Shown here: piece by piece, positions 1-6,408 of the stretch
Layout: each line of letters begins with the position of its first letter
How positions within the stretch are numbered: position 1 is the first letter of the stretch
IMG/VR virus record: IMGVR_UViG_3300029954_000074
Location: 1-26,735 of that record
From: a virus
DNA length: 26,735 nt
Reading direction: 5' to 3' (one strand)
The notes under the pieces: model-generated
Told to the model about the DNA's origin: nothing
The model's database searches: none
The model's input: the letters and a program-made list of their open reading frames with translations, nothing else
Translations under genes and position numbers: made by a program

Positions 1-1
1 C

Positions 2-340
2 GTGATTGAGTTCGGATTAAATGGCTGGATGGCGTTTCACCGATCGTGGAAAGACGGCTATCTGGCGGCCCCATATTGTTCGTGTCTGACTGAGGATTTA
101 TATATTATCTATCGTCGTTGGTGTGATAAGAGCGGTGAAAAAGCGCTGACACTCACAAAATTTTCTGGATTCATCGGTAGTCGTGAAACTAAGGTGAAGA
201 AACCAGTTGCTGTTGGTCCTAAATTAAAAATGTCTCGGATGGTGTATGTCATTGAAAATAGTAATGAGCCAGGCACGTTAGATGAACAGGTGAATCATTT
301 TCGTGATCGCGCAGATGTTCGTGCGGACGGGAATGCGTAA
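2..340 (+). CDS. C-terminal fragment of a probable phage primase/helicase (5' truncated)
   Basis: Open from the left edge of the window, so only the last 112 or so residues are present and the GTG at position 2 is not claimed as a start. The segment reading LYIIYRRWCDKSGEKALTLT and then KFSGFIGSR resembles the C-terminal winged-helix part of phage and plasmid D5/P4-type primase-helicases, where a YxxWC pattern and a following helix-turn-helix-like stretch are typical. In those proteins this domain helps bind origin DNA. The gene stops immediately before a long inverted repeat rich in ACCCTGC motifs, which fits a replication initiator next to its origin. The catalytic primase and helicase domains are outside the window, so the call rests on the C-terminal pattern and position only. 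It could be another replication protein with a similar DNA-binding tail. Confidence 0.5.
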   Translation: MIEFGLNGWMAFHRSWKDGYLAAPYCSCLTEDLYIIYRRWCDKSGEKALTLTKFSGFIGSRETKVKKPVAVGPKLKMSRMVYVIENSNEPGTLDEQVNHFRDRADVRADGNA

Positions 341-343
341 ATT

Positions 344-599
344 ATGCAGGGTTATTCATGGTTGCACTCAAACCCTGCTAACCGCAAAGCCAAGCCCAGT
401 ATAGGTTTCAGCAGGGTATGCAGGGTTTTCAGGGTTTCGCGCACGTATATGTGAATTTGTTTTATGTGTATCTATGTTGATTTATTTTTTATGGCGATTA
501 TTAAAAAACCCTGCATACCATACATACCCTGCTAAGAGTGTTACTGGGCGTGGCTTTGCAGTGAGCAGGGTTTAAGAATAAGTAAGATTAACCCTGCAT
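344..599. repeat. Long imperfect inverted repeat with multiple ACCCTGC/GCAGGGT motifs (candidate origin)
   Basis: This is the main content of the gene-poor stretch 341-628. The left arm 344-420 and right arm 523-599 align as reverse complements without gaps over 77 nt, by my hand count at about 60 of 77 positions. The best block is 370-420 against 523-573. The 7-mer GCAGGGT or its complement ACCCTGC occurs eight times, starting near 346, 372, 411, 420, 508, 526, 565 and 591, with a near copy at 430. Within each arm the motif copies are themselves in opposite orientation, so smaller hairpins can also form. The centre 438-506 is AT-rich. Iteron-like motifs, an AT-rich core and a position next to a primase-type gene suggest an origin or replication control site. 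A transcriptional regulatory element is the alternative. Confidence 0.7.
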
Positions 600-628
600 A
601 TCACGTGATTGATGAGGAAAATTTTGGG

Positions 629-808
629 ATGGCGATTTATGAACGATATCGATATGGTGATCCGCTGGATGTACTAATTTTTGAAGAGTCAAAGACGTGC
701 AAGGGATGTCACTACAACGTTAAATTATAGGAGATGGATGTATGTCCAATAAAAAATGTGAAGGCCATGATTCGGTGCAAAAACTACAGGGAGAACGGTA
801 ATGTCTAA
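629..808 (+). pseudogene. Small four-cysteine phage protein interrupted by an in-frame amber codon
   Basis: An ATG at 629, preceded by GAGGAA at 613-618, opens a frame of 60 codons ending at TAA 806-808. A single in-frame TAG lies at 728-730. Before the TAG the protein has 33 residues including TCKGC (Cys24, Cys27). After it the frame continues with VCP (Cys39) and RCKNYREN (Cys50). The C-x2-C plus two later cysteines, and the RCxxYRE ending, look like small putative zinc-binding proteins found in phage regulatory regions. The two halves therefore make sense only together. The end overlaps the next gene by the 8 bases 801-808, a normal coupling arrangement, which supports this frame as the ancestral one. 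It may be a decayed gene, an amber-readthrough gene or a sequence error. The 33-residue product alone lacks half the cysteines. Confidence 0.5.
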
Positions 809-1163
809 GCTAGGGATACAAGTGCGTTATATTGTGCAATCACCGCTGGATGTGTGTTTAGAGATATGGGTAAGTTGGACGCGTCGTGACAATTTAAATA
901 ATAATCACCGCGACCGCGTATGTGATCATGACAACGATGACACTGCCTATATTATGGCTGATATAAAAACAGCGGAGGCTGTCGATGTTATTGTGTATGA
1001 TTTACCACTGCATCAGCAGTGGGCTGTTCGGAAACGTTGTGGCATTTCTCCTGCTGTTTGGCGGTACCCAAACCTAGATTATGCCGTGACGTTGGAATCG
1101 GCAGAACGTGCGATGATTCAGAAAATGAAAAAAAGCTTTGCATGTTGCAAGTATTTCGATTAA
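801..1163 (+). CDS. Putative late-transcription regulator (antiterminator Q-like), weak
   Basis: A 120-residue protein whose ATG overlaps the end of the preceding small frame. The C-terminal half is the informative part. A segment around residues 57-85 (AEAVDVIVYDLPLHQQWAVR) is followed by a VWRYPNLDYAV stretch and a basic helix ending in KKSFACCKYFD. This layout resembles small phage antitermination/late-regulator proteins with a sigma-70-region-4-like helix-turn-helix, but the match is by general pattern and I see no diagnostic motif. The gene sits between the replication end and the late operon and is followed by a strong hairpin terminator, the place where lambda-type phages put Q. A hypothetical protein of other function is possible. 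Confidence 0.35.
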   Translation: MSKLGIQVRYIVQSPLDVCLEIWVSWTRRDNLNNNHRDRVCDHDNDDTAYIMADIKTAEAVDVIVYDLPLHQQWAVRKRCGISPAVWRYPNLDYAVTLESAERAMIQKMKKSFACCKYFD

Positions 1164-1235
1164 TATTCGTTCCATGGGTGTTTCTTCACGCCCAGAACTT
1201 TATCACTAGCAACTATATACTAGGATAAATATATC

Positions 1236-1266
1236 AGCCGCACTCTACACAGAGATGCGGCTTTTT
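1236..1266 (+). terminator. Rho-independent terminator after the putative late regulator
   Basis: AGCCGCA pairs with TGCGGCT, and inside this CTCT pairs with AGAG around an ACAC loop with one bulged A. A run of five T follows at 1262-1266. It separates the early/regulatory genes from the gpZ-like gene and cos. If the upstream gene is an antiterminator, this could be a terminator it must overcome to reach the late operon. Confidence 0.75.
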
Positions 1267-1319
1267 GCATTTGGTCGCCACTTTTTGTACGGATGTTCTC
1301 CTAGCCGTCTAAAAACAAA

Positions 1320-1904
1320 ATGATTAAAATTTCTGTCTCATCAAACGGCAAGGATATTACTGCAAGTTTAAATCGATTCATTGTGGATCAGCAGAAAGCC
1401 GTTGTGCGTGCGTTGAACAAGACCGCAGAACAAGCTAGAACAGCAGCGTCACAAGAAGTCCGTTCTGCTGGTTATAACATTAAAGTCAGTGCCATTAAAA
1501 AAAGCTTCACCATTAACCGAGCATCTAGTAAGAATCTAATTGTCGTACTGAAAGCAACAGGTAAGCCCATTGCTATGATTAACTATGGTGCACGGCAAAC
1601 GAAGTCAGGTGTTTCCATCAATGTGAAAACTGGTCGTCAATTATTACGTCACGCATTTATAGCGACAATGGCGAACGGACATCAGGGTGTGTATGAACGT
1701 GTTGGTATTGCGCGAACTAGTGGGAAGATTACTAAAGGCGGAAAGACACAACGGGCAAACTTGCCTGTGAAAGAATTATTCGGGCCATCAATCCCGATGG
1801 CCTTATCCAATGATGTGGTCGAGCAGGCTATCATGAGTAAGATCAAAGAAAAGTTTCCGAAGATATTGGCATCGGAACTGAACTACCTTAGGCTAAAAAA
1901 GTGA
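1320..1904 (+). CDS. Prophage minor tail protein Z-like
   Basis: A 194-residue protein, close to the roughly 192 residues of lambda gpZ. The N-terminal part (ALNKTAEQARTAASQEV, then a GYNIKVSAIKKSF block) and the central NYGARQTKSGVSINVKTGRQ region with a following HAFIATMANGHQGVYER stretch are the recognisable GPZ-family pattern. This includes the conserved glycine-rich G-R-x-x-x-x-x-H-A-F run and the later LPVKELFGPSIP motif. In lambda, gpZ acts late in tail completion so that tails are infective. Here the gene lies upstream of cos rather than beside the tail-terminator gene, and the rest of the tail is Mu-like, so its role may be adapted. No clear Shine-Dalgarno precedes the ATG, and upstream stops exclude an earlier start. 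Confidence 0.8.
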   Translation: MIKISVSSNGKDITASLNRFIVDQQKAVVRALNKTAEQARTAASQEVRSAGYNIKVSAIKKSFTINRASSKNLIVVLKATGKPIAMINYGARQTKSGVSINVKTGRQLLRHAFIATMANGHQGVYERVGIARTSGKITKGGKTQRANLPVKELFGPSIPMALSNDVVEQAIMSKIKEKFPKILASELNYLRLKK

Positions 1905-1930
1905 GTTCCCATGAGGTAATAGAAATCAAT

Positions 1931-2000
1931 GGGTCCTTCCCCGACCTTTCTGTATTGCGGGGACGAAGACTCGCGAGTTTCCGCTATTTGAAAAAATTAT
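1931..2000 (+). other. cos site (lambda-like): cosQ-like heptamer and cohesive-end nick region
   Basis: GGGTCCT at 1931-1937 is identical to the lambda cosQ heptamer as I know it. It starts 29 nt before a GGG at 1960, against 30 nt in lambda. Position 1960 begins the 12-mer GGGACGAAGACT, followed by CGCGAGTTTCCGCTATTTGA. Lambda has GGGCGGCGACCT followed by CGCGGGTTTTCGCTATTTAT. By analogy the 12-nt 5' overhang would be 1960-1971. The site lies just upstream of the terminase small subunit, as in lambda. Only 45 bp separate the predicted cut region from the terS start, so there is little room for a lambda-sized cosB. I did not identify R sites or an IHF site. The nick positions are inferred, not observed. 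Confidence 0.85.
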
Positions 2001-2016
2001 CTAAGGGGGTTGTATA

Positions 2017-2532
2017 GTGAGCCTTCAAGAAACTATTTCACAAAAAAAGTTTGGTGATTTAATTGGTATCAGTCAGCAGGCAGTTAGCGATTTGATTCGA
2101 CGTGATGTGCTGCGGTCGAATGACCCCGCGTGTGTATGGCTGCTGAGTTATTGTAGTCACTTGCGTGAACAAGCTGCAGGCCGTGCTGCGACAGGGGATC
2201 TTGATTTGGCTGGTGAGAGAGCCGCGCTGGCGCGGGTCCAACGTGAGCGTATTGAGATGCAAAATGATGTTACCCGCCGCGAGCTGGCCCCAGTAGCGAT
2301 ACTAGAGTTTGCGCTGGCAACAGTAGGTCAAAAAATTGCCGCTATTTTGGAATGTATTCCAAGGAACATCAAGCGCCGCTCTAAGAACCTGACTTCCGAG
2401 GATATTGAAATCATAGTCGCTGAAATTACCAAGGCGCGTAATGTCGCTGCGTCCGTGCAACTCGATATGAAAGATTATGACGGTACTAGCGGAGATACAG
2501 AAATCGATACGGATGGGGCTGAAGAGTCTTGA
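2017..2532 (+). CDS. Terminase small subunit (Nu1-like)
   Basis: A 171-residue protein, against about 181 for lambda gpNu1. It starts at a GTG preceded by AAGGGGG at 2003-2009, which decides the start. Residues 1-32 form a winged-helix DNA-binding start (KKFGDLIGISQQAVSDLIRR) of the kind Nu1 uses to bind cosB. The middle is a charged helix with LARVQRERIEMQNDV, and the second half carries conserved helices (LATVGQKIAAILECIPRNIK) seen in Nu1-family proteins, which mediate TerL contact and oligomerisation. It would recognise the cos site immediately upstream and position the large subunit. The 3' end overlaps the terL start by 56 bp in another frame, implying coupled translation. Confidence 0.88.
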   Translation: MSLQETISQKKFGDLIGISQQAVSDLIRRDVLRSNDPACVWLLSYCSHLREQAAGRAATGDLDLAGERAALARVQRERIEMQNDVTRRELAPVAILEFALATVGQKIAAILECIPRNIKRRSKNLTSEDIEIIVAEITKARNVAASVQLDMKDYDGTSGDTEIDTDGAEES

Positions 2533-4501
2533 AGCACCGCCACCATTGCGTTTGTCAGAATGGGCGGCTGAGCATTTCTATCTAAGTAGCGAGTCGTCAT
2601 ATGTCCAAGGTAAGTGGGAAGCATACCCATTTCAGATTGCAATTTTGGATGCGATCAGCAATGACGATATCGAAGAGCTGGTTTTTAAAAAATCAGCGAG
2701 GGTTGGCTATACCAAAATGATTGTTGCAGCAATGGGATATTTTGCCCACCACAAACGTCGCAATCAGGCTATTTGGCAACCTACCGATGATGATGCAAAA
2801 GAATTTGTTAAGGTTGAGTTAGACACAATGTTGCGCGATGTCCCGGCGCTTCAGGATGTCATGCCGCGTAGCTCTGGACGGGATAGTGGTAACACGCTGA
2901 GCTCAAAAAGATTTCTTGGCTCAATGCTATTTATTCGTGGCGGAAAAGCGGCAAAAAATTACCGCCGCTTGTCGGTTGATGTCGCGATCCTAGATGAATT
3001 AGATGGTTTTGACATTGATATTGAAAAAGAAGGAAGCCCGGATAAGTTAGCTAAGAAACGTACGGAAGGTGCGACGTTTCCTAAGCAAATTATGGGGTCA
3101 ACACCAAAACTCAAAGGGTTTAGTCGAATAGAAGCGCGTGAACAGCAGTGTGATTTACGGTTTTTGTATCATGTTCCATGTCCTTCCTGCACTGAATTAC
3201 ATTCTATACAGTGGGGCGGAAAAGATAAAAGTTACGGTTTTAAATGGATTAACGCAGACCCTGAAACAGTGGGGCATGCCTGCCCGCATTGTGGTGTCAT
3301 TTATGACCAAGCTGATTATTTATCGATTTGGAAAAATGGGCGTTGGATTGCTGAAGATGGCACTTGGATTGATGCATCAGGGCATTTTCGGTCTGGGATA
3401 GGGGATGTCGTTGCTGCTCCACGTGCCATCGCGTTTCATATCTGGACTGCATATAGTCCTCAAACAACATGGGTACAAATTGCACGCGAATTTTTGGCCG
3501 CAACGGAGAAAGCGCGGGCGGGTGATGCCAGTGAGTTAAAAACATTTGTTAATACAACGTTGGGTGAAACATGGGAAGAAGAGGTTGAAAAAACCGATGT
3601 CGATGCATTAATTAGTCGTGCTGAAAAATATACGCTGCGTAAAGTGCCGATGGGTGGATTGGTATTGGTTGCTGGTGTTGATGTGCAATCAAATCGATTT
3701 GAGGTTGTGGTCTGGGCTATCGGGCGCGGTGAAGAAATGTGGGTAGTAGATTATCACATTATTGACGCTAATCCAGCGGATGAACGTGACTGGGAAGAAA
3801 AGCTAGACCCATATCTCCTGATGCGGTTTCGACATTCTGCAGGGCAAAGTTTAGCTATTGAAGCAGTTGGAATAGATACAGGCGGGCATTTTACACATCA
3901 ATGTTATAACTTTTGTCGAGCCCGTACGCGACGTCGAATTTATGCCGTAAAAGGTGAAAATCATCCGGGGCGACCAGTTAAGGGGCGTAGCAGTTTACAA
4001 GATGTGAACTATCGCGGGTCTATCTTAAAACGGGGAGTGCGGCTATGGATGGTCGGGACCGATACTGCTAAGGATTTGATCCACGGACGACTTCAGGTTA
4101 CTGCAGTTGGTCCTGGTTACATGCATTTTTCAGCAAGTCTTCCAGCTGAGTTTTATGCACAATTGACAGCAGAGGTTCGGGTCTTACAAAAGACTTCCAG
4201 TGGTGAGCAGTATCGATGGGTCAAACGTCAGACGCGCAACGAGGTACTTGACTGTACTGTTTATGCCATGTTTGCAGCGCATACATTGGATTTACATCGT
4301 TATACCGACCGCATGTGGACCAAACTGGAAGCTGCAGTTTGTCCACCAGTAACCGACATGTTTGGAGGATTACCTGATCCAGATGAAGAAATGCACGTAA
4401 TAGAGATTGAGAAAGAGCCAAAATTAGCGCTTGCGTCAGCACCTACGGTATACGTAACCCCCGTTAAAAAAACATTAACTAGTCGTTTAGCCAGGATTTA
4501 A
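2477..4501 (+). CDS. Terminase large subunit (lambda gpA family)
   Basis: A 674-residue packaging ATPase and cos nuclease, against 641 for lambda gpA. It reads very close to gpA along its length. The N-terminus matches the GLRSL and SEWA-FYLSSES-YVQGKWEAYPFQ region. An atypical Walker A, KSARVGYTK, sits at residues 72-80. GGKAAKNYR precedes a Walker B segment ending in D173-E174. The central part has CPSC and CPHC pairs and the FHIWTAYSPQTTWVQI and FVNTTLGETWE motifs. The nuclease half begins near VAGVDVQSNRFEVVVW, where the Asp is a likely metal ligand, and the end carries the RNEVLDCTVYAMFA motif. The start at 2477 is chosen because gpA homology begins upstream of the next ATG at 2513. It would cut cos and power DNA translocation through the portal. 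Confidence 0.95.
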   Translation: MTVLAEIQKSIRMGLKSLEAPPPLRLSEWAAEHFYLSSESSYVQGKWEAYPFQIAILDAISNDDIEELVFKKSARVGYTKMIVAAMGYFAHHKRRNQAIWQPTDDDAKEFVKVELDTMLRDVPALQDVMPRSSGRDSGNTLSSKRFLGSMLFIRGGKAAKNYRRLSVDVAILDELDGFDIDIEKEGSPDKLAKKRTEGATFPKQIMGSTPKLKGFSRIEAREQQCDLRFLYHVPCPSCTELHSIQWGGKDKSYGFKWINADPETVGHACPHCGVIYDQADYLSIWKNGRWIAEDGTWIDASGHFRSGIGDVVAAPRAIAFHIWTAYSPQTTWVQIAREFLAATEKARAGDASELKTFVNTTLGETWEEEVEKTDVDALISRAEKYTLRKVPMGGLVLVAGVDVQSNRFEVVVWAIGRGEEMWVVDYHIIDANPADERDWEEKLDPYLLMRFRHSAGQSLAIEAVGIDTGGHFTHQCYNFCRARTRRRIYAVKGENHPGRPVKGRSSLQDVNYRGSILKRGVRLWMVGTDTAKDLIHGRLQVTAVGPGYMHFSASLPAEFYAQLTAEVRVLQKTSSGEQYRWVKRQTRNEVLDCTVYAMFAAHTLDLHRYTDRMWTKLEAAVCPPVTDMFGGLPDPDEEMHVIEIEKEPKLALASAPTVYVTPVKKTLTSRLARI

Positions 4502-4768
4502 ATGAGAGTGAATCTTCCAAGAGTAGGCCTGTTGGCAGGTCGTGCTACGTCCCAACTTCAGTTGGATTTAAATGCCGCACAACAAGCCTATATTGACCTG
4601 TCAACAGGATCTAAGGGGGAGTCCTATACGTACACACAAGAGGATGGGACTAAATCGGTTACATACACTCGTGCGAATATTCAAGCTCTTTCCGCATTGA
4701 TTATTACCTTGCAGTGCGCATTGAAAATTCCCGGTGCAGGGCGTCGTGCTATTCGATTTAATTTCTGA
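4502..4768 (+). CDS. Head-tail joining protein, gpW-like
   Basis: An 88-residue protein that starts right after the terL stop. Residues 20-88 match the small gpW fold: a first helix (DLNAAQQAYIDLSTG), a beta-hairpin with alternating polar residues (ESYTYTQEDGTKSVTYT), a second helix (NIQALSALIITLQCAL) and an arginine-rich tail ending RRAIRFNF. Lambda gpW is 68 residues, so there is an extra N-terminal piece of about 20 residues. In lambda gpW enters the portal ring after packaging, stabilises the filled head and creates the surface for gpFII. The order terL, W, portal is that of lambda. The stop overlaps the portal ATG by one base. Confidence 0.85.
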   Translation: MRVNLPRVGLLAGRATSQLQLDLNAAQQAYIDLSTGSKGESYTYTQEDGTKSVTYTRANIQALSALIITLQCALKIPGAGRRAIRFNF

Positions 4769-6408
4769 TGAGTAACAACGTAAAAATAATTGGCGTAAAT
4801 GGCTTGCCATTGCCTCACTCACGGTCACGTGCAGCGATGTTATCCGGAGGGGGGAATTCTCCTTATGATGCCGCTGATATTTATGGCGACCACATGTCAT
4901 CGTGGAATCCTTATCTAGGATCGCCTGATGGTGAGTTGAACATGTATCGCGACCGGATTGTGTCGCGGGTACGTGATTTAGTCCGTAATGATGGATGGGC
5001 CAGTGGTGCAGTCACGCGTGTTCTCGATAATGCTATCGGGGCCAATTTCAGGCCAATTTTTAAACCTGATTATATGGCGCTTGCCGCGCATACAGGAATT
5101 AAAGGTTTTGATCACGTATGGGCAGAGGAGTATGGTCAAGCGCTTGAGGCAGCCTGGCGTACTTGGGCAAACGACATGGGTCGGTTTTGTGATACTCAGC
5201 GTAATTTAACCTTGTCCCAAATTATGCGACTAGCATTTCGGCATAAAATTATTGATGGTGATGCGCTGGCAATGGTGCACTGGTTGCCTGATCGTGTTCA
5301 ACCAGGTCGAGCGCGTTATGCAACGACGATACAGGTGATTGATCCTGATCGGTTATCTAACCCTCAAAATACATTGGATCAAAATTCAATGAGGGGTGGT
5401 GTTGAGGTAGATGCGTATGGAGCTGCTATTGCGTATCACATACGTAAGGCGCACCAAGGCGATTATTTTAGTGCTGCTAAATCAGTGACGTGGGATCGGA
5501 TAGAAAAAGAAACGAGTTGGGGTCGCCCCATTATCGTTCATGACTTTGACCATGACCGTGCAGCACAACATCGTGGTGGCGCAGGAATTTTCGCTCCTGT
5601 TGTGCAGCGGCTAAAAATGTTGATTAAATATGATGGTGCAGAGTTAGATGCATCGATCATTAATGCAATTTTTGGCGCATATATTGAATCCCCTTATGAT
5701 CCGGCAATGGTTGAATCCGCGATTGGAGAGGGAAATAAGGAGGTTATCGGTGCATATCAGGATGAACGAACAGACTTTCATAAGGATCAAAAAATAAAAT
5801 TGGGCGGAGCACGTATGCCCATTTTATTCCCTGGTGAAAAAATTAACGCCGTGACTGCTGCACGACCGAATAGTAATTTCAAAGATTTTGAAAATGCTGT
5901 GCTACGTAATTTTGCTGCAGGTACTGGTTTATCAACTCAGCAGGTCAGTAATGACTGGTCTGACGTTAATTATTCGTCAGCACGAGGAGCAATGCTGGAA
6001 GCATGGAAAACATTATCCCGTCGTCGAAATGACTTTGCCATGGGATTTGGCCAACCGATTGTTTGTGCGTTTACCGAAGAATCTATGGATATTGACAATT
6101 TACCGCTACCGACTGGTGCTCCTGAGTTTTCAGAATTTCGCGCTGCATATGCGCGAGTGAAATGGATGGGGCCAGGTAAAGGAATCATTGATCCAGTTAA
6201 AGAGCGGCAGGGTGCGATTTTGGGAATGGATGCCGCATTATCCACACTGGAAGATGAGGCGGCTGATTTAGGCGGTGTGGACTGGCGTGAAACAGTAGCG
6301 CAACGTGCAATTGAAATTGCACGATTTAAAGAGCTAGGTATTGCGCTCCCTGAGTGGGCCGCTGGTTTTGATGCAACACAATCGATTGATGAACCTAAGG
6401 CCTCATGA
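4768..6408 (+). CDS. Portal protein (lambda gpB family)
   Basis: A 546-residue protein, close to the 533 of lambda gpB. Family patterns include the N-terminal YRDRIVSRVRDLVRNDGWASGAV and DNAIGANFRP segments, the RWTWANDMGRF-like region (AWRTWANDMGRFCDTQ), a conserved IQVIDPDRLSNP block, the central GAELDASIINAIFGAYIES part and the C-terminal DWSDVNYSSARGAMLEAWK motif. Twelve copies form the ring at the unique head vertex through which terminase pumps DNA. The gene starts at an ATG overlapping the gpW stop and ends overlapping the protease gene by ATGA. No truncation or frame disruption is seen. The C-terminus lacks any obvious added domain. Confidence 0.93.
   Translation: MSNNVKIIGVNGLPLPHSRSRAAMLSGGGNSPYDAADIYGDHMSSWNPYLGSPDGELNMYRDRIVSRVRDLVRNDGWASGAVTRVLDNAIGANFRPIFKPDYMALAAHTGIKGFDHVWAEEYGQALEAAWRTWANDMGRFCDTQRNLTLSQIMRLAFRHKIIDGDALAMVHWLPDRVQPGRARYATTIQVIDPDRLSNPQNTLDQNSMRGGVEVDAYGAAIAYHIRKAHQGDYFSAAKSVTWDRIEKETSWGRPIIVHDFDHDRAAQHRGGAGIFAPVVQRLKMLIKYDGAELDASIINAIFGAYIESPYDPAMVESAIGEGNKEVIGAYQDERTDFHKDQKIKLGGARMPILFPGEKINAVTAARPNSNFKDFENAVLRNFAAGTGLSTQQVSNDWSDVNYSSARGAMLEAWKTLSRRRNDFAMGFGQPIVCAFTEESMDIDNLPLPTGAPEFSEFRAAYARVKWMGPGKGIIDPVKERQGAILGMDAALSTLEDEAADLGGVDWRETVAQRAIEIARFKELGIALPEWAAGFDATQSIDEPKAS

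Follow-up and report, generated by a model that had tools for sequence, protein, structure and literature searches.

The DNA analysed here (hereafter the window) is a viral fragment of 26,735 bases from IMG/VR, the 5' end of which falls within a primase-helicase gene. An array of the heptamer ACCCTGC, arranged as two sets around an AT-rich core, begins at most 6 bases past the stop codon of this gene, which is the putative initiator gene (Table 1). The array is followed by genes for a tail-completion-like protein (1320–1904), the terminase small subunit (2017–2532), the terminase large subunit (2477–4501) and the portal protein (4768–6408). No nucleotide-level match was found to positions 1–3000 of the window among phages or to positions 1–1000 among E. 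coli genomes, and Rfam returned no credible match.

Table 1. Features of the array and of the adjoining gene end, in window coordinates.
Feature	Position	Strand	Remarks
Initiator C-terminal 112 aa, D5-type winged-helix domain	2..340	+	PHROG 2249 DNA primase, E 2e-9
Left iteron set	344..427	.	ACCCTGC at 346(-), 372(+), 411(-), 420(-)
Left spacer box GCAAAGCCAAGCCCAGTA	384..401	+	Lies in the 39-nt opposed iteron pair; recurs inverted, with differences, at 542-559
Alternating purine-pyrimidine tract CGCGCACGTATATGTG, Z-DNA-prone, 16 nt	438..453	.	Lies past the left iteron set, before the core
AT-rich core containing a T-run; putative melting region	456..500	.	78% A+T at 460-499; sequence conservation 0.60, flanks conserved
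Right iteron set	508..597	.	ACCCTGC at 508(+), 526(+), 565(-), 591(+)
Right spacer box	542..559	-	Inverted near-copy of 384-401

The array lies within a large inverted repeat. Aligned without gaps, positions 344–420 and the reverse complement of 523–599 agree at 60 of 77 positions, compared with best 77-nt inverted matches of 37–46 in 20 mononucleotide shuffles of positions 1–1500. A longer repeat was returned by repeat-finding, with 95-nt arms (343–437 and 506–600) which are 78% complementary and have 68 nt between them. Eight exact copies of ACCCTGC (hereafter iterons) are present in the array, four in each orientation, with only three more in the remainder of the window. Elsewhere in the record, no second two-orientation 7-mer array with at least two copies each way was detected in 400-nt segments, compared with eight copies at the array. 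The A+T content of the core is well above the 53% found for the window as a whole. A preliminary description of the locus had recorded the two arms, the eight heptamers, the AT-rich core and the neighboring primase-type gene, all of which were reproduced; it had missed the tract at 438–453 and had not separated out the matched spacer boxes within the arms.

The window carries only the C-terminal end of the putative initiator. The product of the ORF at 2–340 aligns with the C-terminal 110 residues of proteins 808–958 amino acids long, and the Pox_D5 profile scored under its cut-off on this ORF. Fuller statements on domains come from relatives such as L001, in which DUF5906 was identified with an E-value of 1.5e-19. 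In an AlphaFold2 model of the L001 fragment, a winged-helix-like unit was predicted confidently at residues ~406–460, with the C-terminal helix-helix-strand-strand unit having a pLDDT of about 80–90. The model is poor at residues 235–318 (pLDDT below 50), and so only fold-level statements are drawn from it. The modelled helicase and winged helix were found to resemble SaPI5 PriRep (Foldseek E 3e-6; Z 10.7 over residues 14–484), and the same model gave a Z of 15.0 against the C-terminal region of NrS-1.

Viral contigs were scanned with the 112-amino-acid C-terminal piece, which identified 44 loci, mostly on metagenomic contigs, with products 65–77% identical to that of the window. Every one of the 44 loci carries the array directly downstream of its initiator gene, with 5–10 exact copies of ACCCTGC within 700 bases past the primase stop codon. 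Most of them share a fixed spacing, in which each arm contains a 39-nt opposed iteron pair and, on its core-facing side, two iterons of like orientation. Among 19 non-redundant relatives, the iterons at 372, 411, and 420 are 98–100% conserved, those at 508, 526, and 565 95–100% and the outermost two about 70%, while mean conservation is 0.91 for iterons, 0.71 for non-iteron positions and 0.60 for the core. The array also turned up in a scan of genomes, in those named as Massilia, Duganella, Undibacterium, and Janthinobacterium, mostly Oxalobacteraceae, and it is unbroken in prophages of the first three. A search for the array beside the same primase had been proposed in the preliminary description, and the array and its spacing are kept in all of the close relatives found.

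A wider scan took in initiators down to 42% identity. The position of the array and its two-arm plan stay constant as the initiator diverges, while the iteron differs, with at least 11 sequences in all. At an initiator identity of about 50% the iteron is AACAGGG, and at about 42% AAGTTGAA and CGGGGCA were found. Named phages at 34–41% initiator identity have CCCAACACA (Pseudomonas phages pAN and Turba), CCGCACA (Stenotrophomonas phage S1) and TCAGACA (Halomonas phage H4907), with Moraxella phage Mcat7 showing weak repeats only. Four small plasmids (7.6–9.7 kb) encoding a DUF5906-type primase-helicase carry arrays of GGTTACAA, TGGAAA, ACCCTGGACA or ACCAAGTAC 3' of that gene; a short gene lies between gene and array in pW47-1, and in pIsolateG_E the array sets in about 300 bases past the gene. 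The AACAGGG and ACCCTGC iterons are closely alike (AACCCTGTT vs. AACCCTGC), which makes the independent iteron changes fewer than the count of motifs, and the co-variation of iteron and initiator was assessed without tree correction. Compared with the ACCCTGC class, the other classes are 49–64% identical in the helicase core and 27–43% in the linker and winged helix, values which are uncorrected for shared ancestry.

The prominence of these arrays was assessed by scanning 10 whole records (the window, five phages and four plasmids) for 7-mers that recur in both orientations. The array after the initiator gene was the strongest two-orientation array in eight of the 10; it ranked second in pMP1 and was not found in Mcat7. 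The same scan also recovers the crr of phage P4, which is established as a replication region acting in cis. Under a strict criterion of two copies each way, the arrays of L047 and L121 went undetected and that of L118 ranked second, owing to the degeneracy of some copies.

In relative L026 (1883–4345), the N-terminal half of the primase is unlike that of the other relatives, in which it is TOPRIM-type, but the helicase and winged-helix half fused to it is the one they share; the ACCCTGC array is kept. From its sequence, this primase looks like a natural domain exchange.

Z-DNA can form in alternating purine-pyrimidine runs. Such a run, of 11–26 nt, was found in the first 350 bases past the initiator gene in 21 of 21 records, usually near +80 to +130, and it is present in every initiator class examined. 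A median of 0.9% of the other 350-nt segments of the same record reach that run length. The longest run sits elsewhere in the array in L007, L042, and L119. The runs of L111 and L121 are unremarkable, with 15% of segments reaching their length.

The array is very probably the replication origin of the phage, lying beside its initiator. An origin at this place had been suggested in the preliminary description, and the suggestion gains from the retention of array and spacing beside the same gene in close relatives and from the change of motif with the initiator in distant ones. The support is sequence-based and consists of the position of the array, the conservation of the iterons, their change with the initiator, the AT-rich core, the winged helix and the similarity of the helicase fold to SaPI5 PriRep. 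Cumulative GC skew, which had been put forward as a further check, showed no consistent inflection in nine records.

The way in which such an origin would work, from binding through ring loading and melting to priming, is inferred from the examples of SaPI Rep and Cch2. It is known that SaPI Rep recognizes its origin via its C-terminal domain and that the isolated C-terminus of Cch2 binds its repeats (PMC7581432). By the same token, the primase-helicase encoded upstream would bind the heptamer iterons via its C-terminal winged helix, and initiator seated on both iteron sets would give rise to two helicase rings, each oriented toward the AT-rich core. This core would then open, perhaps together with the neighboring purine-pyrimidine tract, allowing the rings to load onto opposite strands, and the priming of bidirectional synthesis would fall either to the primase part of the protein or to the host.

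The preliminary description had named no described system with this exact layout. In general terms there is one, as the origins of SaPIs and other PICIs, which lie immediately 3' of rep and consist of an AT-rich region flanked by two iteron sets, share it (PMC6092414); replication of an E. coli PICI requires both rep and ori (PMC6092414). The likeness to the pri-rep-ori modules of SaPIbov1, SaPI5, and EcCICFT073 extends to a D5/SF3-type helicase initiator with a C-terminal DNA-binding domain, an origin directly 3' of the initiator gene and two iteron sets flanking an AT-rich core. Unlike those modules, the carriers here are full-size phages with terminase and portal genes, as well as small plasmids, and the initiator belongs to the DUF5906/PHROG 2249 family, being 8–14% identical to SaPI5 PriRep in structure alignments. 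The purine-pyrimidine tract and the spacer boxes of the array may be further points of difference. In its sequence features the element conforms to a module of the SaPI/PICI type, and its carrier is a phage. The carrier itself was rejected as a PICI, meaning a satellite without full virion and packaging genes, since the window encodes both terminase subunits and the portal. The putative origin of SCCmec served by Cch2 is similar in that repeats downstream of the initiator gene are bound by the C-terminal domain of the gene product; it differs in having three iterons only, as direct repeats, and in its separate primase, CCPol-MP.

Phage P4 offers a different model, in which the array would be an enhancer or copy-control site needed in cis for replication, like crr, and synthesis would begin elsewhere. 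The alpha protein of P4 likewise has a primase fused to an SF3 helicase and winged helix, and crr lies 3' of the alpha gene with type 1 iterons running both ways, the separate ori of P4 being about 5 kb off. However, P4 has type 1 iterons at both of these sites, whereas the window has a single array with symmetric arms, and those contigs of relatives for which ACCCTGC positions were listed have one cluster each. The crr of P4 also lacks the symmetric plan of two sets around one central AT-rich core. A role of this kind is considered unlikely for the present array.

The arms themselves could be taken to form a cruciform or stem-loop origin recognized by its structure, as has been proposed for pRN1 and Bordetella phage BIP-1, both described as having stem-loop origins 3' of the replication gene (PMC4234260). 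These systems share with the present locus a primase, an SF3 helicase, a winged helix and an inverted repeat 3' of the gene, and the window, as a single strand, folds far better than its shuffles (−62.2 vs. −28 kcal/mol, z −9.5). However, the conserved feature reported for pRN1 and BIP-1 is structure and not iterons, whereas here sequence conservation is higher in the iterons than in the remainder of the array. The 32-nt spacers within the opposed iteron pairs have an inverted match of 16–26 of 32 positions in most relatives. The left spacer has the opposite orientation in 11 loci (the L005 group), so that the inverted match falls to 10–12 of 32 with a shifted direct match of 20–22, while the iterons are unaltered. 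Pairing of the arms is therefore not kept independently of sequence, and the loss of spacer pairing with retention of iterons fits sites read by a protein rather than a conserved cruciform, contrary to the large cruciform-forming element that the preliminary description had offered as a second reading. No comparable iteron array was found in Bordetella phages BIP-1 and BPP-1, which look like a different origin type, and recognition by structure appears quite improbable for the array studied here.

The spacer boxes may have a role of their own. The box ATCCATGCGGGTT is present in L111–L128 and in most close relatives, and it also occurs in the AACAGGG class. Its occurrence in classes with different iterons suggests that its reader may differ from the iteron-binding domain, and the box may be a host-factor or priming site.

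A late-operon control element (operator, terminator or antitermination site) between the replication and head genes is highly improbable: the array does have the primase gene on one side and the head and packaging genes on the other, and some distant relatives have a hairpin-like spacer after the primase gene, but no promoter- or terminator-like matches were found in 341–600, Rfam offered nothing credible, the genes after the same plan are quite different in other phages and plasmids, and the iteron tracks the initiator. A telomere-resolution site of the N15 type was rejected, with protelomerase (PF16684) in none of the records of 20 relatives, some of which are perhaps fragments. An attP site was likewise rejected, as the integrase domain is at least 10 kb from the array where both were located and the array is intact within prophages in host genomes.

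With the array read as an origin, a wider proposal can be made, which we offer tentatively as a real possibility that falls somewhat short of being favored. A single origin plan 3' of the DUF5906 primase-helicase gene may serve a broad class of replicons, namely temperate phages of several proteobacterial groups and small plasmids. In this class the two iteron sets, the AT-rich core and the Z-DNA-prone tract would be constant, with an iteron that differs according to the winged helix. Throughout the class the tract would serve for melting or loading, and the iteron together with the C-terminal half of the protein would form an exchangeable specificity unit. The general type of origin is already known. 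No earlier description of such arrays in phages was found in a literature search, subscription journals aside, and as far as that literature goes neither the plan outside satellites nor the range of iteron types nor the purine-pyrimidine tract has been described.

Should the arrays prove to be origins, the plan would be widespread among ordinary temperate phages and small plasmids, a point of relevance to the ancestry of satellite replicons. It would also provide a rule for finding origins in unannotated phages and plasmids, namely a short repeat in both directions right after a DUF5906 primase-helicase gene, and a recognition code could be worked out from the naturally occurring set of iteron and winged-helix pairs.

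Some further repeats were observed in these records. A fragment of Yersinia phage Rostov 43 (L146) has GGTTACAA repeats after its primase gene at ~3571–4550, a motif also found in the Proteus plasmid pW47-1. A second strong 7-mer array lies away from the primase gene in V. vulnificus plasmid pMP1 (L143, 6551–6950, CAGTTAA in both directions) and in Citrobacter plasmid pIsolateG_E (L145, 1126–1475, CGAATAC), and these second arrays are possibly partition or other control sites.
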